64,000 nucleotides of DNA from Spirochaetales bacterium. Lineage in GTDB: Bacteria; Spirochaetota; Leptospiria; Leptospirales; Leptonemataceae. A model generated the notes under the pieces. The model saw only the letters and a list, made by a program, of their open reading frames with translations. It searched no databases and was not told the DNA's origin. Of this stretch, positions 1 to 62,352 are shown piece after piece (position 1 is the first letter of the stretch; every line of letters starts with the position of its first letter). The translations under genes and the position numbers were made by a program. The stretch is taken from NCBI GenBank assembly GCA_015075425.1, contig JABTUL010000002.1:62001-126000 (forward strand), written 5' to 3'.

Positions 1-855
1 GGCCTCCTTACGGGGAGTGGCCACGTTAACGTCCGCCAGATATTGGCCGGAAAGGGCACCGGCCTCGGGATGCACCAGCGCATAGCATTGCGTGGCCGCC
101 CCTTCGGGAATGGATTTTTGAAAAATCGGTCCGACCATACCGAAGGCGAAACGTGCTACAGCCGGCATGTGCCGCCCCAGATTGGTTTGGATCACACCGG
201 GGTGAAGGGACACGGCGACGCGGCTGCTTCCTTTGAAGCGGCGGGCCAGCTCACTGGCAAAGAGGATATTGGCCATTTTGGATTGGCCGTAAGCCGTCCA
301 GGGACGGTAGCCGCGATCGCCGGACAGATTCTCGAAATCGATTCCGCCCGCAGGGGCCATCGTATGAGCGGAAGAGCTGACAACTACAACGCGGCCATTG
401 CCCACAAGCTTTTCCAGAAGCCCGGTGATGAGAATGAAGTGACCTACATGATTCGTAAAGAATTGTAACTCGTAGCCATAAGCCTTTTCCAGCGATGGCA
501 GCGCCATGATGCCGGCATTGGCCAGAATGCCGTCCAGCCGACCTTCCTCTCGCATGACGGCGGTCACGCACTGCCGAATCGACAAGGGATCTGCCAGTTC
601 GCAGGCAAATCCCTTGTGCCCGTTACCAAGTGGTGCCAGGGCCCCGAAGGCCTTCTCTGCCGTTCGCGCCGTGCCCAGAATCTTTGCGCCGCGCAGAGAC
701 AGCACCCGGGCCGACTCAAGGCCCAACCCGGAATTACAGCCCGTGATCAGATACGTTTTCCCGGTGAGATCCAGACCGGAGGTAACGGTTTCCGCTGTTG
801 AGGAATAACCAAAACCATTCTTGCCGGGGGGTAAAAAGAAACCTATGACTGACAT
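1..855 (-). CDS. Short-chain dehydrogenase/reductase (SDR), C-terminus beyond left edge
   Basis: Classical NAD(P)-dependent oxidoreductase of the retinol-dehydrogenase/WW-oxidoreductase-like SDR group; the substrate is not deducible. Reading leftward from the ATG at 853-855, the protein opens with a short tail, then 'NGFGYSSTAE', typical of this subgroup, followed by 'GKTYLITGCNSGLG' (the TGxxxGxG dinucleotide site), 'LANAG' and the catalytic 'AYGQSKMAN' (YxxxK) with an upstream 'SSSAH' serine. About 285 residues are visible and no stop is reached, so the C-terminus is lost. It is transcribed away from the lipid-modification operon at 1026-5453 and shares a 170-bp upstream region with it. SDRs often accompany amine-oxidase/DUF1365/cyclopropane-synthase clusters, so a lipid substrate is plausible but inferred. 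Confidence 0.85.
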   Translation of the reverse strand, partial: MSVIGFFLPPGKNGFGYSSTAETVTSGLDLTGKTYLITGCNSGLGLESARVLSLRGAKILGTARTAEKAFGALAPLGNGHKGFACELADPLSIRQCVTAVMREEGRLDGILANAGIMALPSLEKAYGYELQFFTNHVGHFILITGLLEKLVGNGRVVVVSSSAHTMAPAGGIDFENLSGDRGYRPWTAYGQSKMANILFASELARRFKGSSRVAVSLHPGVIQTNLGRHMPAVARFAFGMVGPIFQKSIPEGAATQCYALVHPEAGALSGQYLADVNVATPRKEA

Positions 856-989
856 GCAAAAGACCCTGTTTTGGAAGGCTCCGCCGTGGCGAGCGAATCA
901 TGCCGAGAATTACCGAAGAGGCTGTGGACCTGACCTGTGGTGAGTGGACCAAAAAAAGGGAATTCTTGTCATAGGATTAAAATAAACCA

Positions 990-1018
990 TTGACATTCTG
1001 CTTCACCGTGCTTATCCT
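990..1018 (+). promoter_or_regulatory. Possible sigma70-type promoter of the lipid-modification operon
   Basis: A perfect -35 hexamer TTGACA (990-995) is followed after 17 bp by TATCCT (1013-1018), four of six -10 consensus positions. Transcription would begin near 1025, essentially at the ATG at 1026, giving a leaderless or almost leaderless message. A GGGAG ribosome-binding-like stretch (1020-1024) would then lie outside the transcript. Either this promoter is not used, or the start is unusual. Confidence 0.35.
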
Positions 1019-1025
1019 TGGGAGC

Positions 1026-2297
1026 ATGAAATCTGTGGCAATTATTGGAACCGGGATCAGCGGGATGGCGGCTGCCTACTCGTTGCGCAGAAAAGCCCAA
1101 CTGACTCTTTTTGAGAAGGAGCAGCGTTCGGGCGGGCATACCTGCACGATCGAAGTCGATGGCCCCGGCGCAGTACAGGTAGACATGGGCTTTATCGTCT
1201 TTAATGCCGAGACCTATCCGGGCCTCTGCGGCCTGTTCCAGGAGCTGGGCATTGAAACGCATGCCTGCGAAATGAGCTTCTCCATGCACAACCAGGAACA
1301 GGGCTGGATCTGGAGCGCAGCCAGGCTATTTGGTGCGCGCAATCTCCTGCGACCGGGTTACTGGCGAATGCTTGGCGAAGCTCTGCGCTTTTTCCGGGAT
1401 GCGGAGAAAGATGTAAAACTACTGGATCCCGAGATTTCGCTGGGTCAGTATTTTGAACTGCGCGGCTATAGCGAATGGCTTCGGGATAATTTTGTCTATC
1501 CCATGGGAGCGGCAATCTGGTCGACTCCCGTGCAGGGCATTGCCGAGTTTCCGGCGCGGTCTTTCCTGCGCTTTTTTCAGAATCACGGGCTGTTGGGCGT
1601 GGATACACAGCACCAGTGGTATAGCGTGAAAGGGGGAAGTCGAACCTATCATGAAGCTATATTAAAGAAAATCGAGCAACCCGTGCGCTTGAGCGAACCG
1701 GTGCTGGCCATTGAGTCGCTACCGGCCCGCACAGGGGCCGGTGCGCGAGTCCGCATTAAAACTGCCAGATCTGAGCAGGATTTCGGCGCTGTGATAGTCG
1801 CTTCGCACGCCGACGAAGCGCTGACCCTCCTGGGCCCGAATGCCTCCCCCCTGCAACAAACATTGCTTTCTAAGTTCAGCTACACGACCAACAACGCCGT
1901 GCTGCACACCGACGCGTCGGTCATGCATCCGGATCGAAAATACTGGAGTGCCTGGAATTTCAAAAAAGATACTGCGACGGGTGCTGCCCGGAATTTCCGA
2001 ACGGCCACAGTTTACTATATGAATGCCCTGCAGGCTTTGCCGGAGGGGCAGGACTATTTTGTTTCCATCAATGAATTCGATTCCGTGGCTCCGGAGAAGG
2101 TTGTGGCCCGCAAGACTTTCGAGCATCCGTTTTTTGATAAAACGGCCGTTGCCGCGCAGGCTCACCTGCCAGAATTGAACGAAAACGGCCCGATCTACTT
2201 CGCCGGAAGCTATTTCAAGAACGGATTTCATGAGGATGGATACCAGGCCGGAACGAACGCGGCAAAGGCGGTGGAACGTGCAATCCTGTCGGTATGA
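1026..2297 (+). CDS. FAD-dependent amine oxidase/desaturase-like protein (COG2907 type)
   Basis: Flavoprotein of the NAD(P)/FAD-binding 'amine oxidase' group found with cyclopropane-synthase-like methyltransferases. The N-terminal dinucleotide fold is clear: 'VAIIGTGISGMAAAYSL' (GxGxxG) then 'LFEKEQRSGGHT' with the ribose-binding Glu and GG motif. The C-terminus 'GPIYFAGSYFKNGFHEDG' is the usual second FAD contact. I start at ATG 1026 because the dinucleotide fold begins there and GGGAG lies just upstream; an ATG at 990 would add 12 unsupported residues. The protein is then 423 residues. Relatives in Rhodobacter (the UfaD type, as I recall) desaturate methylated acyl chains on the way to furan fatty acids; that role here is inference from homology class and neighbours. 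Overlaps the next gene. Confidence 0.85.
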   Translation: MKSVAIIGTGISGMAAAYSLRRKAQLTLFEKEQRSGGHTCTIEVDGPGAVQVDMGFIVFNAETYPGLCGLFQELGIETHACEMSFSMHNQEQGWIWSAARLFGARNLLRPGYWRMLGEALRFFRDAEKDVKLLDPEISLGQYFELRGYSEWLRDNFVYPMGAAIWSTPVQGIAEFPARSFLRFFQNHGLLGVDTQHQWYSVKGGSRTYHEAILKKIEQPVRLSEPVLAIESLPARTGAGARVRIKTARSEQDFGAVIVASHADEALTLLGPNASPLQQTLLSKFSYTTNNAVLHTDASVMHPDRKYWSAWNFKKDTATGAARNFRTATVYYMNALQALPEGQDYFVSINEFDSVAPEKVVARKTFEHPFFDKTAVAAQAHLPELNENGPIYFAGSYFKNGFHEDGYQAGTNAAKAVERAILSV

Positions 2298-3114
2298 AGG
2301 TTTGGTATTTCATACGCGCAAGATTGAGCCCGTGCGACGCTTTAGCTACAGACTGGACCTTATGGCCATCGATCTGGATGAACTCCATTTGCTGGAGGGA
2401 GCAGGCATTCGCCTGAACCGTCCGGGTTTGTATAGCTTTTATGAATCAGACTATGCCTCATTTGCGCCCGTTCCGGGGCTTGACCTGAAGGCCCGTGTGC
2501 TACATTTCCTGACCGGCCAGGGTATTCAGGGTATTGTGGACGGGAGGCTGCGAATTGTGCTGGTGGCACAAATCCGGGCCCTGGGAGCCGCCTTCAACCC
2601 GGTTTGCTTTTTTTACATTTATATTGGGAGCACTCTTGTTGCGCTGATCGCTGAAGTTCACAACACATTTGGCGATAAAAGGTCTTATGTGATAAAACTG
2701 AACCCGCCTCTGAAGCCGGAGCCCGCCGGGCAGAGCGCGGTAGAAAGCGCCATGGTCCCCAAAATTTTGCATGTTTCGCCATTTCTGCCCGCAGAAGTGG
2801 ACTTCCGTTTCCGGATCAGTTTGCCAGGAGATTATTTTCGCATTAGCATCAGTACGCTTTCCGGGGAGCGCCCACTATTGGTGGCCGGCTTCGCGGCGGC
2901 TCGTCGTCCGCTTTGGGTGCGCGGGATGCGGCATATTTTGAGAGCCCCGTTCCTTAGCTTTAAGACGATCCTGGCCATCCACCTGCAAGCTGCGGTCTTA
3001 TGGATCCGGGGGGCTCGCTTTTATAGCAAAGACCTTGTGGACCGATTGCTCCATAACCGTACCGGCGACGCTCTGGAGCGCGGCTTCTGGGTCCACGCCA
3101 AAAGACAACAATAG
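2278..3114 (+). CDS. DUF1365 domain protein
   Basis: DUF1365 (COG3496) family protein of unknown biochemistry, a near-constant partner of COG2907 flavoproteins and cyclopropane-synthase-like methyltransferases. The family's opening pattern is present: 'YEGLVFHTRKIEPVRRFSYRL' followed by an acidic 'IDLDEL'. Mid-protein 'GAAFNPVCFFYIY' and 'AEVHNTFGDKRSYVIK' are also typical. The frame opens at ATG 2230 inside the preceding gene, but homology begins only after the GTG at 2278, which has GGTGG just upstream; I take GTG 2278 (20-bp overlap, translational coupling). The protein is then 278 residues. No signal peptide. Confidence 0.8.
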   Translation: MQSCRYEGLVFHTRKIEPVRRFSYRLDLMAIDLDELHLLEGAGIRLNRPGLYSFYESDYASFAPVPGLDLKARVLHFLTGQGIQGIVDGRLRIVLVAQIRALGAAFNPVCFFYIYIGSTLVALIAEVHNTFGDKRSYVIKLNPPLKPEPAGQSAVESAMVPKILHVSPFLPAEVDFRFRISLPGDYFRISISTLSGERPLLVAGFAAARRPLWVRGMRHILRAPFLSFKTILAIHLQAAVLWIRGARFYSKDLVDRLLHNRTGDALERGFWVHAKRQQ

Positions 3115-3139
3115 AATAATAATTATTAAAGGTGACGGT

Positions 3140-4366
3140 ATGTATAAAACGATTTTTCTGAAAATTCTGGGCCGCTGCAAACACGGTAGCCTGATCCTGA
3201 AGGAGGGATCAGCAGAGTTTCAGTTTGGCCGGGACGATTCAGGCTCCAGGAAAAGTAGAGCTGCGATCATTGTAGTTAATTCGCCGATATTCTACCGCAA
3301 GGTGGTTCTGGGGCAGGACAATGGAATGGGAGAAGCCTACTGGGAAGGCATGTGGGATTCACCGGATATGACCCCCGTTTTTGCGTTCTTTATTTTGAAT
3401 CGCGATTGCCTCCCATCCTTTGCCGGCCTGAAAAAACTTACATGGTTCTTCCTTTCCTTCACTGGCCTCAACGATCGTTTCCAGAATTGGCTTCGACCCA
3501 ACACGCGGAGCGGCAGCCGCAAAAATATTAAATCTCACTATGATGTGGGGAACGATTTTTATCGACTGTGGCTGGATGGTAGTATGACCTATTCTGCTGC
3601 GTTGTTTAGCAATCCGCGCGAAAAACTGGAGCGGGCGCAAATCAATAAATACGACGCTCTTTGCCGCAAGATTGACCTGAACGAGAACGATCATGTTCTG
3701 GAGATAGGGTCAGGCTGGGGTGGTTTTGCTTTATTTGCTGCCCGCAAATACGGCTGCCGCGTCACGAGTATAACCGTTTCGGAGGCACAACTTAAAGAGG
3801 CGCGGGCGCGGCTGGCGATGTCCGGACTCGCGGGAAAGGTTCAATTCCTGCTCATGGATTATCGAGATATAAAAGGACAGTACGACAAAATAGTTTCCAT
3901 TGAAATGGTGGAAGCACTGGGGTATCGTTATCTGGATACTTTCTTCCGCACCTGCTCGCGGCTGCTCGCGCCGGGGGGAGCTATGGGTTTGCAAGCGATT
4001 ACCATGCCAGACCATCTCTTTCATGATTACAGGAGAGGGACACCGGACTTCATCCGTCGGCACGTATTCCCCGGCGGGCTACTGGTTTCTTTGCAGGAGA
4101 TGCTGAATTCCCTTGTGCGCACCTCCCAGTTGAATGTGCAACACCTGGAAAGCATGGCTGGCAGTTATGCGCTTACCCTGTCTCGCTGGAAAAAAAATCT
4201 AAGCGAGCGCTTCAGTGAAATCAGGGCGCGCGGCTACCAGGATGCGCTGGTGCGCAAATGGGAATGCTATCTGGCAATGTGCGAAGCTTCTTTTGCGGAA
4301 CGGTACATCAATGTGGTGCAACTGGTCCTTGCCCGGCCAGGGAATCGGCTTTCCATTGTGCGCTGA
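3140..4366 (+). CDS. Cyclopropane-fatty-acyl-phospholipid synthase family methyltransferase
   Basis: SAM-dependent methyltransferase acting on unsaturated acyl chains of membrane phospholipids (CfaS/UfaM/mycolic-acid-cyclopropane-synthase family). Family features: 'SHYDVGNDFYRLWLDGSMTYS' (substrate/bicarbonate region), the SAM-binding 'HVLEIGSGWGGFALFAA' and 'VSIEMVEALGYRYLDTFF'. I start at ATG 3140, preceded by AAAGGTG, rather than at 3035 inside the upstream gene; this gives 408 residues, normal for the family. The N-terminal 120 residues are the lipid-recruiting portion of CFA synthases. Third gene of the operon, 25 bp after the DUF1365 gene. Whether it makes cyclopropane or methyl-branched chains cannot be read from sequence. 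Confidence 0.88.
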   Translation: MYKTIFLKILGRCKHGSLILKEGSAEFQFGRDDSGSRKSRAAIIVVNSPIFYRKVVLGQDNGMGEAYWEGMWDSPDMTPVFAFFILNRDCLPSFAGLKKLTWFFLSFTGLNDRFQNWLRPNTRSGSRKNIKSHYDVGNDFYRLWLDGSMTYSAALFSNPREKLERAQINKYDALCRKIDLNENDHVLEIGSGWGGFALFAARKYGCRVTSITVSEAQLKEARARLAMSGLAGKVQFLLMDYRDIKGQYDKIVSIEMVEALGYRYLDTFFRTCSRLLAPGGAMGLQAITMPDHLFHDYRRGTPDFIRRHVFPGGLLVSLQEMLNSLVRTSQLNVQHLESMAGSYALTLSRWKKNLSERFSEIRARGYQDALVRKWECYLAMCEASFAERYINVVQLVLARPGNRLSIVR

Positions 4367-4427
4367 GGTTTTTCTGCTCCGGGTCTGGCAAAGGCATTGC
4401 AATAAATGGAAAATACAGGGATATAGA

Positions 4428-5453
4428 ATGAAAATTGATAGAATTATAGACAGGGGCATTCTGCCCGATCCTCTTTTGCGCGCAGTTGTGCGTGGCCGAT
4501 GTCGGGACATGTTGAAAGAGTACAATCGTTTTTCTGCCGAAGAGCTTCAGGAGCAGTTCAACGCACTGATCGCAAATCTGGATAACTCACCCGTGGCGAT
4601 TGAAACCAGAAAAGCCAATGAGCAGCACTATGAATTGCCACCGGATTTTTTTGAAATTGTTCTGGGACCCCACCTGAAATACTCCTCCTGCTACTGGGAT
4701 GAAACCACAGCGGACCTGAAATCCGCGGAAGAACGTATGCTGGCCCTTACCTGCCAGCGGGCGGATCTGGGCAATGGCCAGGCGATTCTGGAACTGGGCT
4801 GCGGCTGGGGATCGCTTTCGCTTTTCATGGCCGCGCGCTTCCCTGGATCAACCATTACCGCCGTGTCCTATAGCGCCCCGCAGCGCGAGTTTATTCTGGC
4901 GCGTGCCCGCGCGAGGGGGATTGCAAATCTACGAGTCCTCACCATGGACATGAACAACCTTCAACTGGACCAGAAGTTTGACCGGATTGTTAGCGTGGAG
5001 ATGTTCGAGCACCTGCGCAACTACAGGCTTTTCTTTCAAAAGCTGGCCGGAATGCTGACTGGCCAGGGTAAGCTTTTCATTCACATTTTTGCCCACCACA
5101 GCCGGCCTTTTCTGTATGACGATTCCCTTGAAGACAACTGGATGGCGCGCTATTTTTTTACCGGCGGAACGATGCCTTCTGCCAGCCTGTTTTTTTATCT
5201 TGCGGACGGCTTCCGTATTGCCGGGCACTGGCAGGTCCAGGGCACACACTATGAAAAAACTCTAAATGCCTGGCTTGCGTGCATGGATCGCAATAAGGCG
5301 CAGCTCATGCCTGTCCTGAAATCCGTTTATGGCGATCAGGCATTTGCCTGGTGGCATCGCTGGCGCCTCTTCTTTCTGAGCTGCGCTGAGTTTTTTGGCT
5401 ACGCGGGCGGCAATGAATGGCTGGTGCAACACTACCTGTTTGTTAAGAAATGA
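4428..5453 (+). CDS. Second CFA-synthase-like SAM methyltransferase (coclaurine N-methyltransferase-like group)
   Basis: SAM-dependent methyltransferase related to cyclopropane synthases but of the shorter branch that annotation often likens to plant coclaurine N-methyltransferase. Motifs: 'NEQHYELPPDFFEIVLGPHLKYSSCYW' in place of the YDVGNDFY block, SAM site 'AILELGCGWGSLSLFMAARFP', then 'DRIVSVEMFEHLRNYRLFFQKLA'. Start is ATG 4428 after CAGGG at 4416-4420 (341 residues); the frame is open upstream but overlaps the previous CDS. It follows the first methyltransferase by 61 bp, same strand, so it is probably the last gene of the lipid operon. Two different CFA-family enzymes in one operon suggests two successive or alternative methylations. 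Confidence 0.82.
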   Translation: MKIDRIIDRGILPDPLLRAVVRGRCRDMLKEYNRFSAEELQEQFNALIANLDNSPVAIETRKANEQHYELPPDFFEIVLGPHLKYSSCYWDETTADLKSAEERMLALTCQRADLGNGQAILELGCGWGSLSLFMAARFPGSTITAVSYSAPQREFILARARARGIANLRVLTMDMNNLQLDQKFDRIVSVEMFEHLRNYRLFFQKLAGMLTGQGKLFIHIFAHHSRPFLYDDSLEDNWMARYFFTGGTMPSASLFFYLADGFRIAGHWQVQGTHYEKTLNAWLACMDRNKAQLMPVLKSVYGDQAFAWWHRWRLFFLSCAEFFGYAGGNEWLVQHYLFVKK

Positions 5454-13389: not shown

Positions 13390-13943
13390 AGATCTACACC
13401 CGTAGCGGAGACGATGGACGAACCAGACTGGCGAGTGGCGAAGCCGTGAATAAACATGACCTGCGCGTGGAGCTGTACGGTCTGGTCGATGAACTCAATT
13501 CTGCCATCGGTCTGGGTGTATCGGACCTTGAGGCCACCGGAGAATCCTTACAGATGGGCAAAGCCTTACAGATAGAACAGAGTCTCCTTTTTGAACTCGG
13601 CGCGGAATTGGCCGGTTATCGCAAAATCGAGGCGGCCATTCTGCCCGAAGATATCGAACGACTGGAAAAACAGATCGATCAGTGGTCGGAAAACCTGGCG
13701 GACCTGCGACAGTTCATTCTGCCTGGAGGCACACGGGCCGCCGCTGGCCTGCATCTGTCGCGGACCATCTGTCGTCGACTGGAAAGACAGCTAACCCGCA
13801 GCAAAAGCGAAGGTCTGGAAATTTCTGCTATCATTATCATTTATATCAACCGTTTGTCGGATTATCTTTTTGTAGCGGCACGCACAGCAAACAGACTGGG
13901 CGGACAGACGGATATACCCTGGCAATCCGCGCGCAAATCATGA
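13386..13943 (+). CDS. pduO: PduO-type ATP:cob(I)alamin adenosyltransferase
   Basis: Transfers the adenosyl group of ATP to cob(I)alamin to form adenosylcobalamin. Family signatures: N-terminal 'IYTRSGDDGRTRL' (ATP-binding TKxGDxGxT type), 'LRVELYGLVDELNSAIGL', 'FILPGGTRAAAGLHLSRTICRRLER' and 'YINRLSDYLFVAARTANR'. 185 residues, as expected for the three-helix-bundle PduO/MMAB group. It overlaps tmk by ATGA and the PhoD-like gene by ATGA. Gives the cell a source of adenosylcobalamin, which the MerR-B12 regulator at 60556 might sense (inference). Confidence 0.92.
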   Translation: MKIYTRSGDDGRTRLASGEAVNKHDLRVELYGLVDELNSAIGLGVSDLEATGESLQMGKALQIEQSLLFELGAELAGYRKIEAAILPEDIERLEKQIDQWSENLADLRQFILPGGTRAAAGLHLSRTICRRLERQLTRSKSEGLEISAIIIIYINRLSDYLFVAARTANRLGGQTDIPWQSARKS

Positions 13944-54901: not shown

Positions 54902-56121
54902 GCATCGACGCCATCATCAGTCAGTGCCTGAAAGCCAGACTGTTTTTTTTTAAATACATTTCTGCAAATGATTGTGGCCGCACCGGGGGTCACCAGGCCG
55001 GTCTGTACATCCCCGGACATTGCTGGCCTCTTTTTCTTACAGCTCCGGGAAAGAAAGGGGAGAATGCAGCCCACTGGATTGAAATCCAGTGGGCTGATGC
55101 CCGGCACGAATCGCGCTTTTTCTGGTATGGCAAAAAGACTCGTTCCGAGTACCGCCTCACTCGCAATCTGCCCTTCATAGACGAACATACGGGCGACCTT
55201 TTGATCTTCGGGCAGGAGCCCGGGAAGAACCACTACTTTGCCCATCGGTTGGAAAGCCCGGATGACATGGATCTATGGCTGGCTGCCCTGGGGCTCAGCC
55301 CGTTCCAGGCGGGGGAACTCATCGATCCCGCAGTACGCCCGGCTACGGCGGCACAGGCCATGGTCGCCCGCTCCTTACGCCAGGATTCTACAGATTTTCC
55401 TTCAACCCAAGAAATTGCCCGTAAGGGGCGGGAGTTGGCCGGTCGTTTCCACAAAGAGGGCCTCAATGCCGACGAACAACTCATCGCCTGGATGGAAGCG
55501 GAATACAGTATTTTTTGCGAAATTGAAAAGATACGCTATGCAGAACATATTTCCCGTCCGGCAGGAAGTATCGATGCCTTGCTGGAACTTTCCCACACCA
55601 TCTTGAATCGGCGAAAGTCGAGAGCCGGGCAGTCCCTGGAAAATCATCTGAGTCATTTGTTTACACTTTATAGCATTCCGTTTTCGGCACAACCCTGGAC
55701 GGAACAAAAGAAAAGGCCTGATTTTATCTTTCCAGGAATTGGCGCTTACCAGGATCCAGATTATCCGGCAGAGTCCCTTGTATTTCTGGCTGCCAAGACA
55801 ACCTGTAAAGATCGCTGGCGCCAGATTCTGAGTGAGGCAGACCGCATTGAGGTCAAGCATCTGTGCACTCTGCAGCAGGGGTTATCGGAAAGCCAGTTAC
55901 GCGAAATGCAGGAAAGAAAAGTCCAGCTCGTTGTGCCCGCTCCCTACCAGAAATTCTTTCCGCGTTACCAGCGCGATCTCTTGCTCAGCGTGACCAATTT
56001 TATGAAATGGGTACAGCAGACGATACGACCCCACCACCCTCTTTTTATCCACACTACGGACAACCCTGATCACAGGGATGGGCGGTTGATGGAAGCAACA
56101 GATCCCCGTCCAGGGCCATAA
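54898..56121 (+). CDS. EcoRII-like type II restriction endonuclease
   Basis: 407 residues from GTG 54898. The N-terminal effector-binding domain shows 'FKYISANDCGRTGGHQAGLYIP' (in parts) and 'ESRFFWYGKKTRSEYRLTR'; the C-terminal catalytic domain shows 'RAGQSLENHLSHLF', 'KKRPDFIFPGIGAY' (Asp275) and 'FLAAKTTCKDRWRQIL' (Lys300 region), which closely match EcoRII. Both domains are intact, so activation by a second site (type IIE behaviour) is expected. Overlaps the methyltransferase gene by 4 bp. Its last 68 bp overlap a gene on the other strand. Confidence 0.95.
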   Translation: MSIDAIISQCLKARLFFFKYISANDCGRTGGHQAGLYIPGHCWPLFLTAPGKKGENAAHWIEIQWADARHESRFFWYGKKTRSEYRLTRNLPFIDEHTGDLLIFGQEPGKNHYFAHRLESPDDMDLWLAALGLSPFQAGELIDPAVRPATAAQAMVARSLRQDSTDFPSTQEIARKGRELAGRFHKEGLNADEQLIAWMEAEYSIFCEIEKIRYAEHISRPAGSIDALLELSHTILNRRKSRAGQSLENHLSHLFTLYSIPFSAQPWTEQKKRPDFIFPGIGAYQDPDYPAESLVFLAAKTTCKDRWRQILSEADRIEVKHLCTLQQGLSESQLREMQERKVQLVVPAPYQKFFPRYQRDLLLSVTNFMKWVQQTIRPHHPLFIHTTDNPDHRDGRLMEATDPRPGP

Positions 56122-57382
56122 GCCCGTCGCGGCCACGCCGGAGATTCAACAGCCGTGGCTCCTGGTTTTTCAAACATGTGCTGGTTAACTTTAGAACGCC
56201 GGAGCAGCTCAAACTGAATTTCCCCCGATCGCAACTGCATACTTCCGGTTCCTGACGGGATTCGATGAAGAGACAGTGCCGGCTCTCATAGCTGCCGCCC
56301 GCCGACAATCGGTAGGAAACACAATGACACCGATTACCCCCATCGCCGAGCACGGTACACTCGCAGGCTTTTTCTGGCTCGACCCATTTGCCTGCAAGCT
56401 CTGCATCAAGAGCACAGACTTCCGGTTTTTGGGCACCATCGCTGATCGTCGCAGACAGATGGATATCACGATCATAGCGTTTCGCCGTGCGGCTCCAGAT
56501 TCCAAACGATAGGGTTTTTCCGTCACATTCACCGCTGGATAGACACTTTTCCCCCCAGCCTTTCTCCTGGCATTGCTCGTCGGATAAACAGGCCGGGCCG
56601 CAACGTCCGCGAATGTGACAGCGATAGGGCACAAGAGCGGCGCTCATTCCAAACTGCATGCAATAAGCGGCCGGATCATCGAGGATCGAGCAGGGAACCT
56701 GGCAGCTGGCCCCGCCCTTTTGTTCCTCCTGGCAGATCGTAGGCATGTGGGCCACGGATGGCCCGCCCCGTGCATCACACTCCGAATCGGCCTGACATTC
56801 CTGCCCGACCAACCGACTGCCGGCCGTCAAACCTCCATGAACAGCAGTGCAGGAACACCAGCCATTTTCATCGCAACCCATCCCCCGCGGACAGGAACGC
56901 TCCTGACAATCACCCGCGCTGAGACCTGGCGGTTGCGGGCGGGTCACCCCGGGGCGAAATTCACAGAGGTTACTTTTCAGATTGCATTGCATGGACTGTC
57001 CACCACGGCAGGGCCTGTGGATGTCACAGGTACGGGGCGCGCATCCCGTGCCCCGTTCACAGACGGTTCCAGCAGGGCATCCTTCCGGACAATCGGTCAC
57101 CGCAGCGATCACGCAGTGCTGGTAGTTCACCAGACAAACAAAGCCGCCCGGGCAACCAGTGGAAAGACACGGAGAAAGTTCCGGCCCGCCCCCGTATCCC
57201 GGCGAAGTGCCCGACAAGCAGTAGCCTCCTGGCGCTATTCCGCCACCGGGATTGACAGAGACTCCTTCGCGGCTGGTTGCAACGGGTCTGGCCAACTCTT
57301 GTGGAACCACCTGACAGGTCAGTTGTAAGAATACAATAGAGACGATGCCCGTGAATCGTACCCGCGCGAAAAGCACAGGCAA
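56054..57382 (-). CDS. Cysteine-rich secreted lipoprotein
   Basis: 442 residues with over 40 cysteines. Signal peptide 'MPVLFARVRFTGIVSIVFLQLTC' (lipobox LQLTC). The mature protein is built of short Cys-rich modules such as 'CPGGFVCLVNYQHCV', 'CPEGCPAGTVCERGTGC', 'CPRGMGCDENGWCSC' and 'CQADSECDARGG', resembling EGF/Dickkopf-like disulfide repeats seen in secreted proteins of myxobacteria and spirochaetes. Probably surface-exposed or periplasmic. The C-terminus lies under the 3' end of the restriction endonuclease gene (68-bp convergent overlap). Function unknown. Confidence 0.75.
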   Translation of the reverse strand: MPVLFARVRFTGIVSIVFLQLTCQVVPQELARPVATSREGVSVNPGGGIAPGGYCLSGTSPGYGGGPELSPCLSTGCPGGFVCLVNYQHCVIAAVTDCPEGCPAGTVCERGTGCAPRTCDIHRPCRGGQSMQCNLKSNLCEFRPGVTRPQPPGLSAGDCQERSCPRGMGCDENGWCSCTAVHGGLTAGSRLVGQECQADSECDARGGPSVAHMPTICQEEQKGGASCQVPCSILDDPAAYCMQFGMSAALVPYRCHIRGRCGPACLSDEQCQEKGWGEKCLSSGECDGKTLSFGIWSRTAKRYDRDIHLSATISDGAQKPEVCALDAELAGKWVEPEKACECTVLGDGGNRCHCVSYRLSAGGSYESRHCLFIESRQEPEVCSCDRGKFSLSCSGVLKLTSTCLKNQEPRLLNLRRGRDGLMALDGDLLLPSTAHPCDQGCP

Positions 57383-57497: not shown

Positions 57498-58619
57498 ATG
57501 CGCTGGCCGGCCCTGTTTCTCCTGCTTTCAAGCGTTGCGTGCAAAGATATTGAAAGACCACCGCTTCTGCCTTATCTTCTGGGCCTTGGCTCCGGTGGTG
57601 GCATCGGTGTGGTTTCGAGCGATCTGGGCGCGGCCGGGCGTTTCAGCGCCATGACCGCTGATGGCATTCCGCGCCTGGGTCAGATCTCCATCCATTCCGA
57701 TGCTATAGCCCGTTATGCGAACGATCGCGTCTACATCATCAATCGGCTCAACCGTAACAACATTCAGGTCTTGAATCCGCGACTTTTGTTCCTGACAGAA
57801 ACCGAATTCTCCACGGGAAGTGGCAGCAATCCGCACGATCTGGCTCTGGTTCATCCGGGGCTGGCCTTTGTAACGCTCTACGAACGCAGTCGTCTGGCCA
57901 TGGTAAATCCTGCTGCCGGTGTGATTACCGGCGAAATCGATCTTTCCGGCTTTGCCGACAGTGACGGGATACCGGAAATGAGCGGCATCTACTACACGGC
58001 CGGCAGGATTTTTGTGGCTCTACAGCGCCTGGACCGAAGTAGCACAACAGGCATCTTTCCACCCACCGGACACTCATCACTTCTGGAACTGGAAGGGGAA
58101 TCGGGTGCCGTAATCGCCGAGCACATCCTGCCGGCCACCAATCCTTTTGGTAAAATAGAGCTCGTTTCGTTGTTCGGGCAGGAGTGGCTGGCCCTGGCCT
58201 GCCCGGCGGGAATTGGCGCCAATTTTGACCTGGCCGGGGGCATTGTTCTTTTTCAACCGGAGCAGAAGACATTCCGGCCAGGATTTGTGTATTCCGAAAG
58301 CAGCGCCGGAGGAGACATTCTGGCCTTTGCCATCAAAGATGATGGCACGGGATACGCCGCCGTTCAATTCAGTGATTTTTCTACAGCCATCCAGCGTTTC
58401 AATCCCACCACCGGCGCAAAGGAGGCCACGCTTGCTTTTTACCCGGGAACGGCCGGCTACGTTGCCGGGATGCTCATCCACCAGGGGAAACTGTATGTCG
58501 GGGACGCCAGCTTTTCCCGCCCGGGGATTACCATCTATGACACCGTTGGAGACAATAAACTCACGCCCACACCGGTGGAAGTGGGCCTGCGACCCACGGA
58601 TCTCATCGTTATCCCCTGA
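57498..58619 (+). CDS. Lipoprotein with beta-propeller-like repeats
   Basis: 373 residues, signal peptide 'MRWPALFLLLSSVAC' (lipobox SVAC). The mature part contains repeated strand patterns resembling YncE/NHL propellers: 'NDRVYIINRLNRNNIQVLNP', 'HDLALVHPGLAFVTLYERSRLAMVNPAAG', 'AGRIFVALQRLD', 'GKLYVGDASFSRPGITIYD', 'GLRPTDLIVIP'. Such propellers bind ligands or partners at the envelope. It is divergent from the Cys-rich lipoprotein gene (115 bp between them), suggesting a shared surface role; inferred. Confidence 0.75.
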   Translation: MRWPALFLLLSSVACKDIERPPLLPYLLGLGSGGGIGVVSSDLGAAGRFSAMTADGIPRLGQISIHSDAIARYANDRVYIINRLNRNNIQVLNPRLLFLTETEFSTGSGSNPHDLALVHPGLAFVTLYERSRLAMVNPAAGVITGEIDLSGFADSDGIPEMSGIYYTAGRIFVALQRLDRSSTTGIFPPTGHSSLLELEGESGAVIAEHILPATNPFGKIELVSLFGQEWLALACPAGIGANFDLAGGIVLFQPEQKTFRPGFVYSESSAGGDILAFAIKDDGTGYAAVQFSDFSTAIQRFNPTTGAKEATLAFYPGTAGYVAGMLIHQGKLYVGDASFSRPGITIYDTVGDNKLTPTPVEVGLRPTDLIVIP

Positions 58620-58669: not shown

Positions 58670-59482
58670 ATGTTTTACAGTGCTCCTACAACGGCTGATG
58701 TCCGCGAAAAACAATCCCGGGGAATGGTGCACATCAAGAGCAAGACGGAAATCCAGCGTATGCGTGACGCTGGTCGCCTGGCGGCAGAGGTTCTTTCGGA
58801 GACGGGTCTGCGGGTCAAAGCCGGGGTAAGCACTCTTGAACTCAATGACTTTGCCCACGAATTGACTCTGCGTAGGGGTGGACAGTCGGCTCCGCTAAAC
58901 TACAGAGGCTTTCCGCGCTCGATCTGCACTTCCGTCAATCAGGTTGTCTGCCATGGAATCCCCAAAAAGGGAGAGATCCTGAAACCGGGGGATATTCTCA
59001 ACATTGATGTAACCGTGATCTACCAGGGCTACCACGGGGACACCTCCCGGATGTTCTACGTCCCGCCGCTGGCAGAGAAAGCCCGGCAACTCATGGAAGA
59101 CACGGAACGTGCCATGTGGATTGGTATTGATTGCGTGAAACCGGATGCGCGTATCTCAGAAATCGGTGATGCCATCGATGCTTACCTTACACCCCGAGGT
59201 TACGGAATTGTCCGCGATCTCACCGGTCACGGAATCGGCCGCAATTTCCATGAAGAACCGGCCGTCCCCCATTATGCCCGCAGTGGTGCGCGCACCCGTA
59301 TGCGGCCGGGGATGACTTTCACAGTCGAACCCATGGTCAATCAGGGCGGACGCCACGATGTTGTGTTTAACAAGAAAGATGGTTGGACGGTAACCACAAA
59401 AGACGGATCCCTTTCTGCTCAATATGAGCATACCTGCCTTGTCACGGAGCATGGCGCTGAAATTCTGACTATGCTTGACTGA
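58670..59482 (+). CDS. map: Methionine aminopeptidase, type I
   Basis: Removes the initiator methionine. 270 residues with all five metal ligands: Asp113 ('LNIDVTVIY'), Asp124 ('GDTSRMFY'), His187 ('LTGHGIGRNFHEEP'), Glu220 ('TFTVEPMV') and Glu253 ('QYEHTCLV'). The N-terminus before 'HIKSKTEIQRMRDAG' is about 18 residues longer than a minimal MetAP. ATG 58724 would give the usual length but has no spaced ribosome site, and ATG 58670 has none either, so the start is uncertain. Confidence 0.94.
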   Translation: MFYSAPTTADVREKQSRGMVHIKSKTEIQRMRDAGRLAAEVLSETGLRVKAGVSTLELNDFAHELTLRRGGQSAPLNYRGFPRSICTSVNQVVCHGIPKKGEILKPGDILNIDVTVIYQGYHGDTSRMFYVPPLAEKARQLMEDTERAMWIGIDCVKPDARISEIGDAIDAYLTPRGYGIVRDLTGHGIGRNFHEEPAVPHYARSGARTRMRPGMTFTVEPMVNQGGRHDVVFNKKDGWTVTTKDGSLSAQYEHTCLVTEHGAEILTMLD

Positions 59483-59545
59483 AAAAGCACAGCGGCTGTT
59501 TGATACCGGCCCCGGGGAATTCGATAATAAGACTGCGCACTGTGC

Positions 59546-60106
59546 ATGAAATTTCAGAATCCACAAAAAACGCACTGGCTTTGCTGTTTGTCGCTCGTTG
59601 TCCTGACTCTCCAGGGTGGCTGTAGCTCTTCACGCACCCGGGTGGAGACGGCCCGCTATAAAGAATATCCTCTGGCTGAACTGGGAGTGCGGCTGTCCAT
59701 ACCTGATTTCTGGGAGGTCAGTGCCAATCAGAACTTTCAACTGGTCGCACGGGGCCCCGGACCTTCAGGGCTGCTGACCACCATCGAATACCGCGGTCTG
59801 GAAAAATCACCCAAGGATGCAACCGATAAAGCTCTCTATGCAACGGGCTGGTATGACGCTATTGCGGCCAACTATCGGGACTGGAGTTTCATTTCCCGCA
59901 AACGGTCCTCTCTCGACCCGGAGGGTCGATTTGAGCTGGAAGGAACCTACCGGGAAGGAGCGATTGTTTTTCGAAAGCTCGGGATTTTGCGCTTCCGGAA
60001 CCACCGTATCCATGCCATCTATTACACGGCACCGGATCAGAATATCGAACCGGTCCGGCAGCTTTTCCTGGAAATCGATCGCCGACACATTTTTGAAGAT
60101 CCGTAA
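59546..60106 (+). CDS. Lipoprotein of unknown function
   Basis: 186 residues, signal peptide 'MKFQNPQKTHWLCCLSLVVLTLQGGC' (shown in part: lipobox LQGGC). The mature domain has 'LGVRLSIPDFWEVSANQNFQLVARG' and 'HRIHAIYYTAPDQNIEPVRQLFLEI', the alternating pattern of small alpha/beta domains seen in PsbP/Mog1-like envelope lipoproteins. That resemblance is weak. It follows map by 63 bp and precedes a small membrane-protein gene. Confidence 0.7.
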   Translation: MKFQNPQKTHWLCCLSLVVLTLQGGCSSSRTRVETARYKEYPLAELGVRLSIPDFWEVSANQNFQLVARGPGPSGLLTTIEYRGLEKSPKDATDKALYATGWYDAIAANYRDWSFISRKRSSLDPEGRFELEGTYREGAIVFRKLGILRFRNHRIHAIYYTAPDQNIEPVRQLFLEIDRRHIFEDP

Positions 60107-60151
60107 GAAAAATCTGTTGAAGATTGCAATGAGCCAGCCTGTCTGTGCGCA

Positions 60152-60538
60152 ATGATTGCAATTGTTACATACGTGGGTGTCGGTCTGGGTGCGCTGCTTG
60201 CGGCCTGGGGATTTTTCCATCAGCTCATTGTGGGTGCTGCCGTTACTCTGGTCAAAGATCTGGAAGATAACTCCGCACGATTGCTGGTCATGAGCTGGGT
60301 CGCTCAGGGCGCTTTTATGACCTTCCTGGGTCTTCTCCCGGCAGCCCTGCTCCTGCTTTACGGCCCTCTTGTACCCGCCGTGGGTGCTGTCCTTTTTCTG
60401 TGCGCCATGGCTCTGCTGTTCTTATCCGGCCATGTGCTGGTCACCGGATACGCCACCCACATCAAACCGATTCGCATTGGTGCGCTTATTGAATTTGTTT
60501 ATGGAATTTATCTTCTGACTGTCCTGATCCTTCTTTAG
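60152..60538 (+). CDS. Small four-helix membrane protein
   Basis: 128 residues almost entirely hydrophobic: helices at about 3-25, 43-70, 72-93 and 103-127. Short soluble segments 'VKDLEDNSARLLV' and 'YATHIKPIRIG'. No catalytic residues stand out; family not recognised. It precedes the MerR-type regulator by 17 bp on the same strand and may be regulated with it. Confidence 0.7.
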   Translation: MIAIVTYVGVGLGALLAAWGFFHQLIVGAAVTLVKDLEDNSARLLVMSWVAQGAFMTFLGLLPAALLLLYGPLVPAVGAVLFLCAMALLFLSGHVLVTGYATHIKPIRIGALIEFVYGIYLLTVLILL

Positions 60539-60555
60539 ACCCCGCCAGGGATGCC

Positions 60556-61326
60556 TTGCAATACCTGATCAAAGATTTAAGCCGGCTCACCGGCCTGCCG
60601 CCGGCACGGATCCGCAAATGGCAGGAACGCTATGACATCCTGCGCCCGGCGATGGGTACCAATGGGTACTACTACTACCACAATGACGATCTGCGTTTGT
60701 TAAACTACCTGAAACAGGAGACATCCAGAGGTCGCAGTATTTCGGAAGTCATTGCTGTGGGCAGATCGGCATTACTAAAAGAATCTTTACAAACAAATGA
60801 TCTTTCTGAATCTTTACAGGCCGTGATCCGCGGCGACTACTCAATGTTTTCCTTTCATAAAGAATTTTCCGGCGATGGTCGGAGTCTGCGGACCTGGCTG
60901 CGTACTGTGTTGCGCCCATTACTGGTTCAGATCGGAATTGCCTGGGAAGCAGGCCACCTGAGCGTAACGGCGGAACACCTTTTCTCCCGCTGGATCAGCG
61001 CTGCCATCTACTCAATGCTGGATACTTTGCCGCCGGCTGTCGGACGCCGCATCCTGTGTGCTGTTTACCCCGGCGATGAACATGAGCTGCCAGGACTTTT
61101 GCTGCACACCTTGCTCCGCTCCTATGGAGCCGCTTCCGTTTTTGTGGGTCAACTGGATGCTGTGGAACTGCGTCGCGAACTTACCTCCCATCCCTCCTAC
61201 GAACGGTTGTACATTACCAGTACGATGCCGCGGGCAGCGACACAGTTACAGAATTTCAAAGAAAGGGTGGGACAGGGTATGCCGCACCTGAAAATTCGCA
61301 TCGGTGGGGCCGGATGGAGCCGCTAA
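60556..61326 (+). CDS. MerR-family regulator with cobalamin-binding domain (CarH/LitR-like)
   Basis: 256 residues from TTG 60556, with CAGGGA 5 nt upstream; the nearby ATG 60551 is out of frame. N-terminal MerR winged helix: 'YLIKDLSRLTGLPPARIRKWQERYDILRPA' (in parts) and 'YYYYHNDDLRLLNYLKQE'. Middle: B12-cap helix bundle with 'WEAGHLSVTAEHLFSRWI', the W-x9-E-H motif (Trp130, Glu140, His141) as in CarH. C-terminal Rossmann B12 domain with 'YPGDEHELPGLLLHTLLRSYG', His176 in the lower-ligand position. The residue after Trp130 is Glu, as in corrinoid methyltransferase modules, not the His I recall in light-sensing CarH. It is likely a B12-responsive repressor. Confidence 0.88.
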   Translation: MQYLIKDLSRLTGLPPARIRKWQERYDILRPAMGTNGYYYYHNDDLRLLNYLKQETSRGRSISEVIAVGRSALLKESLQTNDLSESLQAVIRGDYSMFSFHKEFSGDGRSLRTWLRTVLRPLLVQIGIAWEAGHLSVTAEHLFSRWISAAIYSMLDTLPPAVGRRILCAVYPGDEHELPGLLLHTLLRSYGAASVFVGQLDAVELRRELTSHPSYERLYITSTMPRAATQLQNFKERVGQGMPHLKIRIGGAGWSR

Positions 61327-61425
61327 AAAACGCGCCCGATCATCCGCAGACCACGGCATCCTGCCCCACCGTCCGGAACCAAAACTTTAGCTTGTCCGCA
61401 CCCGGAAAATGGAGAGTTTCGTTCT

Positions 61426-62352
61426 ATGGATCAGACCACACGTAAATCGTTACCCAAAGCACTGGAATACGTCCTGCTGCGGCTGATCAGTGCCCTGCTG
61501 CTTTTGCTTCCCTTTTTTGTACGGGCCCGCTTCATGGAACAATTTGCCAGAGTCCTTTTTTCTTTGAGCAAGCGCTACAGGAATCTGGTGCAGGATCATC
61601 TCAGGCTGGCTTTTCCCGAAGAAAACAGCGTGTGGATCCAGCAAATGAGTGTGCGCAACGCCCGATCCATGGGCCGACTTTTTGCGGAACTGATTCAGAC
61701 GCCGTCTATCACACCGGCTTTTTTTGCCCGGCACTTTGTTATAGAAAACGAGGATTTACAGCGCGAAATCTTTAGCAGGGGTGGAATGGCCATTCTGGGG
61801 CACCTGGGAAATTGGGAATGGCATGGACTGGTCGGGGCCCGGCTGGCGGGCCGGCCCATCTATACAATTGTCAAGCGACACACAAATTTCTGGTCCAACC
61901 GCTACGCGGAAACGAGTCGTAACCTGGCGGGCATGCGCTTGATCTACGTGGATCAGAATCCCTTTGAAATCGTACGACTCCTGCGCCGGGGAGAGTTTGT
62001 GGCCTTCACCTCCGATCAGGATGCACGCCAGCATGGATCCTTCTTTCCTTTTTTTGGCAAGCCTGCCTCTACCTTCATGGGTCCGGCTATTATCGCTCGC
62101 ACGACTTCCGTTCCGGCGTACTTTGTCTGGTCCTACAGAAAAGATGGTAAAGTGGTATTTGCGGCCGAGAAACTGCAGGAGCCCTCTGTCGCGCGTGAAA
62201 ACCTGGAGCTATGGGAAGACGAGTTCACCCGAATCTGGCTGGCGAGGCTGGAGCGGGCCATCCGTGAACACCCGGCCGATTATCTGTGGGCGCACAATCG
62301 CTGGAAAAGCCAACCGGTCCCAACCGGTCAGGGAGGACCTTCCAGCGATTGA
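61426..62352 (+). CDS. LpxL/HtrB-like lipid A acyltransferase
   Basis: 308 residues, one N-terminal anchor ('LLRLISALLLLLPFFVRARF'). The acyltransferase motif is 'AILGHLGNWEWHGLVG' (HX4E: His126, Glu131), followed by 'GEFVAFTSDQDARQHGSFFPFFGKPAST' (in parts) and the C-terminal 'HPADYLWAHNRWKSQP', all typical of the LpxL/LpxM family that adds secondary acyl chains to lipid A. The ribosome-binding site GGAGAG is about 11 nt upstream. The 3' end overlaps a convergent lipoprotein gene by 25 bp. Confidence 0.88.
   Translation: MDQTTRKSLPKALEYVLLRLISALLLLLPFFVRARFMEQFARVLFSLSKRYRNLVQDHLRLAFPEENSVWIQQMSVRNARSMGRLFAELIQTPSITPAFFARHFVIENEDLQREIFSRGGMAILGHLGNWEWHGLVGARLAGRPIYTIVKRHTNFWSNRYAETSRNLAGMRLIYVDQNPFEIVRLLRRGEFVAFTSDQDARQHGSFFPFFGKPASTFMGPAIIARTTSVPAYFVWSYRKDGKVVFAAEKLQEPSVARENLELWEDEFTRIWLARLERAIREHPADYLWAHNRWKSQPVPTGQGGPSSD

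Follow-up and report, generated by a model that had tools for sequence, protein, structure and literature searches.

Regulators of the CarH/LitR family that lack the histidine that caps cobalt after illumination raise the question of whether they still respond to light and, if so, which genes they control. One such regulator is encoded near the end of the 64,000-nucleotide stretch of DNA analysed here (the window), which comes from a Leptospira-related spirochaete and is part of a 4.13-Mb genome in which its gene is present as a single copy. The original prediction described a MerR-B12 architecture with cap residues Trp130, Glu140 and His141 and lower-ligand His176, and remarked that Glu131 stands where Thermus CarH has its cobalt-ligating histidine. 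Pfam searches and alignments place all of these at the same residue numbers, with Glu131 on His132 of Thermus thermophilus CarH (TtCarH). From sequence comparison and analogy with characterized systems, the protein is probably an adenosylcobalamin (AdoCbl)-dependent, light-released repressor of the CarH/LitR kind that serves a dispersed photo-oxidative-stress regulon.

The TTG start of the reading frame gains support from the alignment, in which the relatives' proteins start at this residue too (M-K-Y-L-I-K-D-L). Pfam matches MerR_1 (PF13411, E = 1.9e-11) in the N-terminal DNA-binding part and also B12-binding_2 (PF02607, E = 4.6e-5), and the nearest solved structures by sequence are those of Thermus CarH/LitR (3whp, E = 1.1e-17; 5c8d, E = 1.3e-17). 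The best NCBIfam match is the CarH equivalog NF052513 (E = 6.9e-22), whose score of 78 bits falls short of the cut-off of 400. All features of CarH/LitR in the broad sense are found: a MerR domain, a W-x9-EH four-helix bundle and the B12 motif D/ExHx2G/P-x41-SxT/V-x22-27-GG, which reads D174-x-H176-x2-P179-x41-T221-x-T223-x26-G250-G251, with Thr replacing the usual Ser at 221. Three of the four SignatureFinder light-signature elements are present (GxxW, EH and GxxH); the fourth, GxxxP, is absent (G198-QLDA), and the full set is thus incomplete. The loop in the GxxxP region is one residue shorter than in TtCarH, and the residue aligned to the proline, which is Asp in the window protein, is Pro in 19 and Ser in 8 of 28 homologues.

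The neighbours of the regulator gene are, as anticipated, a small membrane protein and an LpxL-like acyltransferase (Table 1). Neighbour annotation bears out the absence of a carotenoid gene beside the regulator, and phytoene/squalene synthase was not found in any of the 22 genomes of the family. Lipoprotein-like and Cys-rich ORFs occur upstream of the regulator gene (57498-58619 and 56054-57382), and an Rfam search of the window gave no match.

Table 1 Features of the window and of one unlinked locus in the same genome. Positions are those of the window unless another frame is given.
Feature	Position	Strand	Remarks
Short-chain dehydrogenase (SDR)	1..855	-	Divergent from operon; cut by window edge
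Predicted operator TTGTC-N21-GACA	964..998	+	Overlaps -35 box of lipid operon; matrix and pattern scan, weaker under Infernal
Sigma-70-type promoter TTGACA-N17-TATCCT	990..1018	+	Shortly before ATG at 1026
FAD amine-oxidase-like protein, UfaD type	1026..2297	+	Amino_oxidase PF01593
DUF1365 protein, UfaO type	2230..3114	+	DUF1365 search
CMAS-family methyltransferase 1, UfaM type	3140..4366	+	37-46% to CMAS genes that follow relatives' regulators
CMAS-family methyltransferase 2	4428..5453	+	43-54% to second CMAS gene near relatives' regulators
PduO-type cobalamin adenosyltransferase	13392..13889	+	
128-aa membrane ORF	60152-60538		Upstream neighbour of regulator
CarH/LitR-like MerR-B12 regulator	60556..61326	+	256 aa; TTG start, TAA stop
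DNA-binding domain	Residues about 1-70 of regulator		
Four-helix bundle	Residues about 85-157 of regulator		W130, E131, E140-H141
B12 Rossmann part	Residues about 162-256 of regulator		H176; four strands
Codons of Trp130-Glu131	60943..60948	+	Glu at TtCarH His132 position; sequence and alignment
Lipid A acyltransferase-like (LpxL-like) ORF	61426-62352		PF03279, E = 1.4e-30
DUF1295 gene with predicted upstream operator	L095 4090-5019 (G000:C2, about 454 kb)		

A contig search with the single regulator protein gave no match, and matches were obtained with an alignment as the query (alignment A1 holds 13 of 17 relatives; A3 holds 18 of 19 loci, without L048, which is cut by a contig end). The gene is matched in 17 of the 22 genomes of the family, where orthologues share 33-40% identity with the window regulator (its own copy aside), and in 31 of the 48 genomes of the class, a few of these matches being partial or weak. 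At 303 bits, against 326-415 for the others in the family, the window protein counts as one of the more diverged members. Across 28 class homologues (window protein included; partial or weak matches and L093 left out), the position of TtCarH His132 is Glu in 23, Gln in 3 and Ser in 2, and never His. A residue other than His is therefore the class-wide norm here and not an oddity of the window protein. His176 and Glu140 are invariant, and Trp130 and His141 are each kept in 27 of the 28. His134, which had been put forward as a substitute ligand, is rejected, since just 2 of the 28 have a histidine at that position. Cap residues are replaced in two class homologues, L086 (G039) and L084 (G025) (W130 to Ser; EH to EN), which still carry the operator described below and are possibly light-blind.

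The cap position also varies among characterized photoreceptors. CtMerR of Chloracidobacterium thermophilum, SasPcob and AbDPcob carry Arg, Gln and Tyr there and are all reported to be light-responsive, CtMerR passing from a tetramer in the dark to a monomer in the light (PMC11796333), and His directly after the Trp is described for many, not all, CarH homologues (PMC9304148). The H132A variant of TtCarH is reported still to bind and photolyse AdoCbl and to keep the dark tetramer; its light state is given as hydroxo-Co(III) and mostly tetrameric, which is disputed, since an earlier report had found disassembly (PMC10442372). A betaproteobacterial homologue (Azoarcus KH32C, L038) has Glu at this position too, and adjoins FAD-oxidoreductase, DUF1365 and CFA genes. 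By analogy, Glu131 would take away the bis-His end state without necessarily ending the response to light, and we do not regard it as evidence against light sensing because of these non-His CarH-like photoreceptors and the Azoarcus Glu homologue. The suggestion that the protein senses B12 without switching in light thus finds no support in the alignments, nor in gene context, where Glu-bearing orthologues adjoin photolyase and photo-oxidative-stress genes.

A second departure from TtCarH, absent from the original prediction, lies at the C terminus. The regulator ends 5 residues past the GG motif, after which TtCarH has 37. An AlphaFold model built from a 19-row alignment (pLDDT 88.1, pTM 0.68) shows a MerR fold followed by a helical bundle and a Rossmann part of only four strands. 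In VIA-align the model matches the photocobilin 8j2x (Z = 17.8, r.m.s.d. 2.0, 169 residues aligned) and TtCarH 8c33 (Z = 16.9, r.m.s.d. 2.4, 164 residues aligned, stopping at TtCarH residue 253), and it also matches CtMerR (Z = 15.7). Model, alignment end and residue count all speak against the five-stranded Rossmann module of class I CarH. A frameshift is rejected as the cause of the short C terminus, since the class homologues likewise have little after GG, or tails unrelated to one another: all 28 stop 0-40 residues past it (the 0 marks a contig edge), and the longer tails, judged by eye, bear no likeness to the end of TtCarH. With the C-terminal strand-helix missing, binding of the B12 tail cannot be taken for granted. 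The genus g12 (L008, L009, L012, L013 and L016) has a conserved C-terminal tail, QYCEPPV(I/M/L)NKRRK, after GG. The best reading of the protein is a CarH/LitR variant without the bis-His ligand and without the last strand-helix of the B12 domain.

The relatives' gene neighbourhoods, strikingly uniform across the 17 loci compared (L019-L035), indicate what such a regulator might control. A UfaD-like FAD oxidoreductase gene lies directly downstream of the regulator in 13 of them, and DUF1365 (UfaO type) and CMAS genes come next in most loci. Several have a gene for an MFS_2 (GPH) transporter upstream, and in five a DNA photolyase gene is divergent from the regulator. In Rhodobacter sphaeroides, UfaM, UfaD and UfaO, the last of which carries DUF1365, are reported to make furan fatty acid (PMC7380195), and genes for a GPH symporter, an SDR, UfaD/UfaO, CfaS and photolyase are described as one RpoE singlet-oxygen regulon (PMC7074977).

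Upstream of the relatives' regulators lies an inverted repeat, GTC-N21-GAC, the right arm of which coincides with the -35 box. Exact copies occur at most 100 bp before the regulator start in 7 of the 17 loci, two of which are near-identical (binomial P = 2e-9, against a background of 44 copies in 225,546 bp). When spacing variants and sites heading the gene run are counted, an operator is found in 15 of the 17 loci, and none even then in L019 and L021. In L019 (G006), upstream of the regulator at 3169, another palindrome, CCTATGACA-N12-TGTCATAGG, surrounds a possible -35/-10 pair. Homologues in the genus g28, which belongs to another family, have no operator of the GTC-N21-GAC type.

In the window, the predicted operator stands before a ufaD-ufaO-ufaM-type operon 55 kb from the regulator gene, a probable target that the original prediction did not mention. 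A 35-base matrix from nine relatives' sites ranks positions 964-998 top in the 64 kb at 21.3 bits, with the next site at 5.3 and a maximum of 10.9 in 20 first-order Markov sequences. A matrix from 24 relatives' sites gives the same positions 23.0 or 24.7 bits depending on the background, scores reached by none of 50 third-order Markov 64-kb sequences (maxima 19.1 and 17.9) and lower than that of the weakest training site (32.7 or 34.1 bits). This matrix drops 3 of 27 sites, two with N20 spacing and one near-duplicate, the 27 having been taken from 55 Infernal rows of which the rest were opposite-strand copies or low-scoring A/T-rich matches. As several of the 24 sites came from the first model, the relatives' own-site scores are partly circular; the sites in the window's own genome are in neither training set, and all score below every training site. 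The nine-site Infernal model did not list 964-998 with default filters, placed it second to an A/T run with filters off (E = 0.23), and missed it in a scan of the own genome (model R1) in which 150 of 495 candidates were scored. A pattern scan of the own genome returned three matches, one of them 964-998, against one in a reversed control.

A 25-site Infernal model (R2) gives four own-genome matches at E <= 1. One is the window site (E = 0.157), another lies just before an MFS_2 (GPH) transporter gene whose product is 44-46% identical to the transporter near relatives' regulators, and a third lies 85 bp before a DUF1295 gene whose product is 46% identical to one near the regulator of L035. By eye, a GTP-cyclohydrolase-like ORF (L095 1178-1693, minus strand) was named near the DUF1295 gene. 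The fourth, G000:C3:268444 (L094 4441-4475), scores highest of all own-genome sites under R2 (17.1 bits, E = 0.031); it was rejected as marking a target, as the sole ORF of at least 90 aa that starts no more than 400 bp downstream is a 102-aa frame 352 bp away. Three of the four matches thus precede genes of kinds that are regulator-linked in relatives (ufaD, transporter and DUF1295). Although each score is weak, the set is convincing as a prediction because the chance expectation of the three placements is about 5e-5 (450 oriented bases of 8.26 million). Under R2, no site falls below E = 1e-3 in G007, G008 or the own genome, and G021, in which no regulator was found, has an operator-like site at 0.0023. 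In genomes G004 and G010 the arrangement is likewise dispersed, operators being found both at the regulator gene and at targets not linked to it. The own genome encodes a photolyase, which was rejected as a target, the matrix scan finding no operator there.

The genes of the operon at 1026-5453 share 26-54% identity with genes around relatives' regulators, and its DUF1365 match (2293-3030) is the only copy in the own genome. Membership of the divergent SDR gene in the regulon is only suggested, by analogy with the matching Rhodobacter and Pseudomonas regulons, in which SDR genes are reported (PMC7074977, PMC9758184). No operator precedes the window regulator itself. It had been proposed to look for binding sites before 60152 and 61426, and both were rejected as local targets: the operator matrix scores no higher than 1.9 bits anywhere in 59300-60600 or -19 in 61300-61440, whereas 964-998 reaches 23.0. 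Control of the present neighbours, the membrane gene and the LpxL-like acyltransferase gene, is accordingly very improbable; co-transcription with the former is likely, its ORF ending 17 bases before the regulator, but neither interval has an operator-like site and the three neighbour genes tested have no match among genes around relatives' regulators.

Taken together with the relatives and the shared operator, the regulator most likely turns on membrane-protecting lipid genes in the light. In the dark, AdoCbl would lie between the helical bundle, whose Trp130 and Glu140 would face its adenosyl group, and the shortened Rossmann part, whose His176 would sit below cobalt. It would thereby keep the protein in the oligomer that binds the inverted-repeat operator (half-site TnnACA) across the -35 box. 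For CarH and CarA, operators placed in this way are reported to be repressor sites (PMC8156234, PMC9304148). Light would break the Co-C bond, and the protein would lose its hold on DNA and lift repression; with no His at 131, the cobalamin of the light state would probably be His-on and capped by water/hydroxo or by a carboxylate, as in CtMerR. Repression by the AdoCbl form in the dark and its release by light are the most likely directions because of the operator position at the -35 box, the adenosyltransferase, with which the cell can make AdoCbl, and the photolyase. The dispersed targets would be the lipid operon, possibly with a furan-fatty-acid product, the GPH/MFS_2 transporter gene and the DUF1295 gene, all with predicted roles in membrane lipids and photo-oxidative stress and with no carotenoid genes among them.

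The same protein could instead report AdoCbl level, that is B12 status, with Glu131 uncoupling photolysis from DNA release. The consistent absence of His from the cap position across the class fits such a function, as does the report that TtCarH H132A mostly remains a tetramer after light (PMC10442372). We consider it unlikely, given that CtMerR, with Arg there, is reported to disassemble in light (PMC11796333), that a relatives' regulon with photolyase and photo-oxidative lipid genes suits light better, and that none of the operator sites read was seen to precede a B12 gene. Quite improbable is a B12-independent regulator, like CarA or class II LitR, that uses the B12 fold for oligomerization only and receives the light signal from a partner such as a BLUF protein. 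The truncated B12 domain and the lost GxxxP proline would suit it, relative L034 has a BLUF-cyclase gene with an operator-like site (11946), and CarA is described as a B12-independent paralogue and class II LitR as devoid of the Rossmann half (PMC8156234, PMC9758184), but oligomerization alone would not need the near-complete conservation of Trp130, Glu140, His141 and His176.

Light-released, AdoCbl-dependent repression, the reading we prefer, sets the regulator between several known systems. With TtCarH (5C8D/5C8F; class I LitR) it shares the MerR domain, the W-x9-EH bundle, the lower-ligand His, the D/ExHx2G/P..GG motif and a TnnACA half-site over the -35 box, whereas it has Glu131 for His132 and is without strand 5/helix 5. 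The TtCarH operator consists of tandem 11-bp direct repeats, unlike the predicted inverted repeat with its TnnACA half-sites, and TtCarH is tied to carotenoid genes, of which the candidate targets here include none. With the class II LitR of Pseudomonas and the Vibrio MerR regulator, which we take to be a class IV LitR, it shares a link to photolyase and UfaM/CFA genes and, in Pseudomonas, to FAD-oxidoreductase genes; the Pseudomonas LitR operator is of the TGTA(C/T)A type, unlike GTC-N21-GAC. Pseudomonas class II LitR is reported to control phrB and ufaM together with related genes, and B12 binding is said to be absent from both class II and class IV (PMC9758184). The Vibrio blue-light response is described as MerR- and ChrR-mediated, with raised CFA synthase and photolyase genes (PMC5241685). 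CtMerR (8JBS/8JBT) is likewise a MerR-type B12 protein without His at 132, but is reported to keep GxxxP (PMC11796333). The RpoE-ChrR regulon of R. sphaeroides shares the target set of GPH symporter, UfaD, UfaO, UfaM, SDR and photolyase (PMC7074977, PMC7380195), but its control falls to an alternative sigma factor with its anti-sigma factor instead of a B12 repressor.

A literature search that left out most subscription journals found no description of a CarH in Leptospirales, nor of one controlling furan-fatty-acid genes. We tentatively suggest that this spirochaete class uses a four-stranded CarH branch, with a Glu (or Gln/Ser) cap and an inverted-repeat operator, as the master repressor through which light controls a regulon of lipid and DNA-repair genes of the singlet-oxygen type, which in other bacteria sits under an alternative sigma factor, and that its light state is of a new, non-bis-His kind with carboxylate or water on cobalt. 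B12 light sensing would then have shifted from carotenoids to membrane-lipid protection, in a class for which the literature search found no such photoreceptor, and the branch would offer a natural test of the need for the bis-His switch and the last B12-domain strand in a CarH-type light response. From the operator, the regulon can be predicted in one genome after another. In one relative, for example, a strong operator (L098 4161, G003:C81) precedes an ORF named by eye as a lipocalin-like lipoprotein, which is a likely extra member of the regulon.
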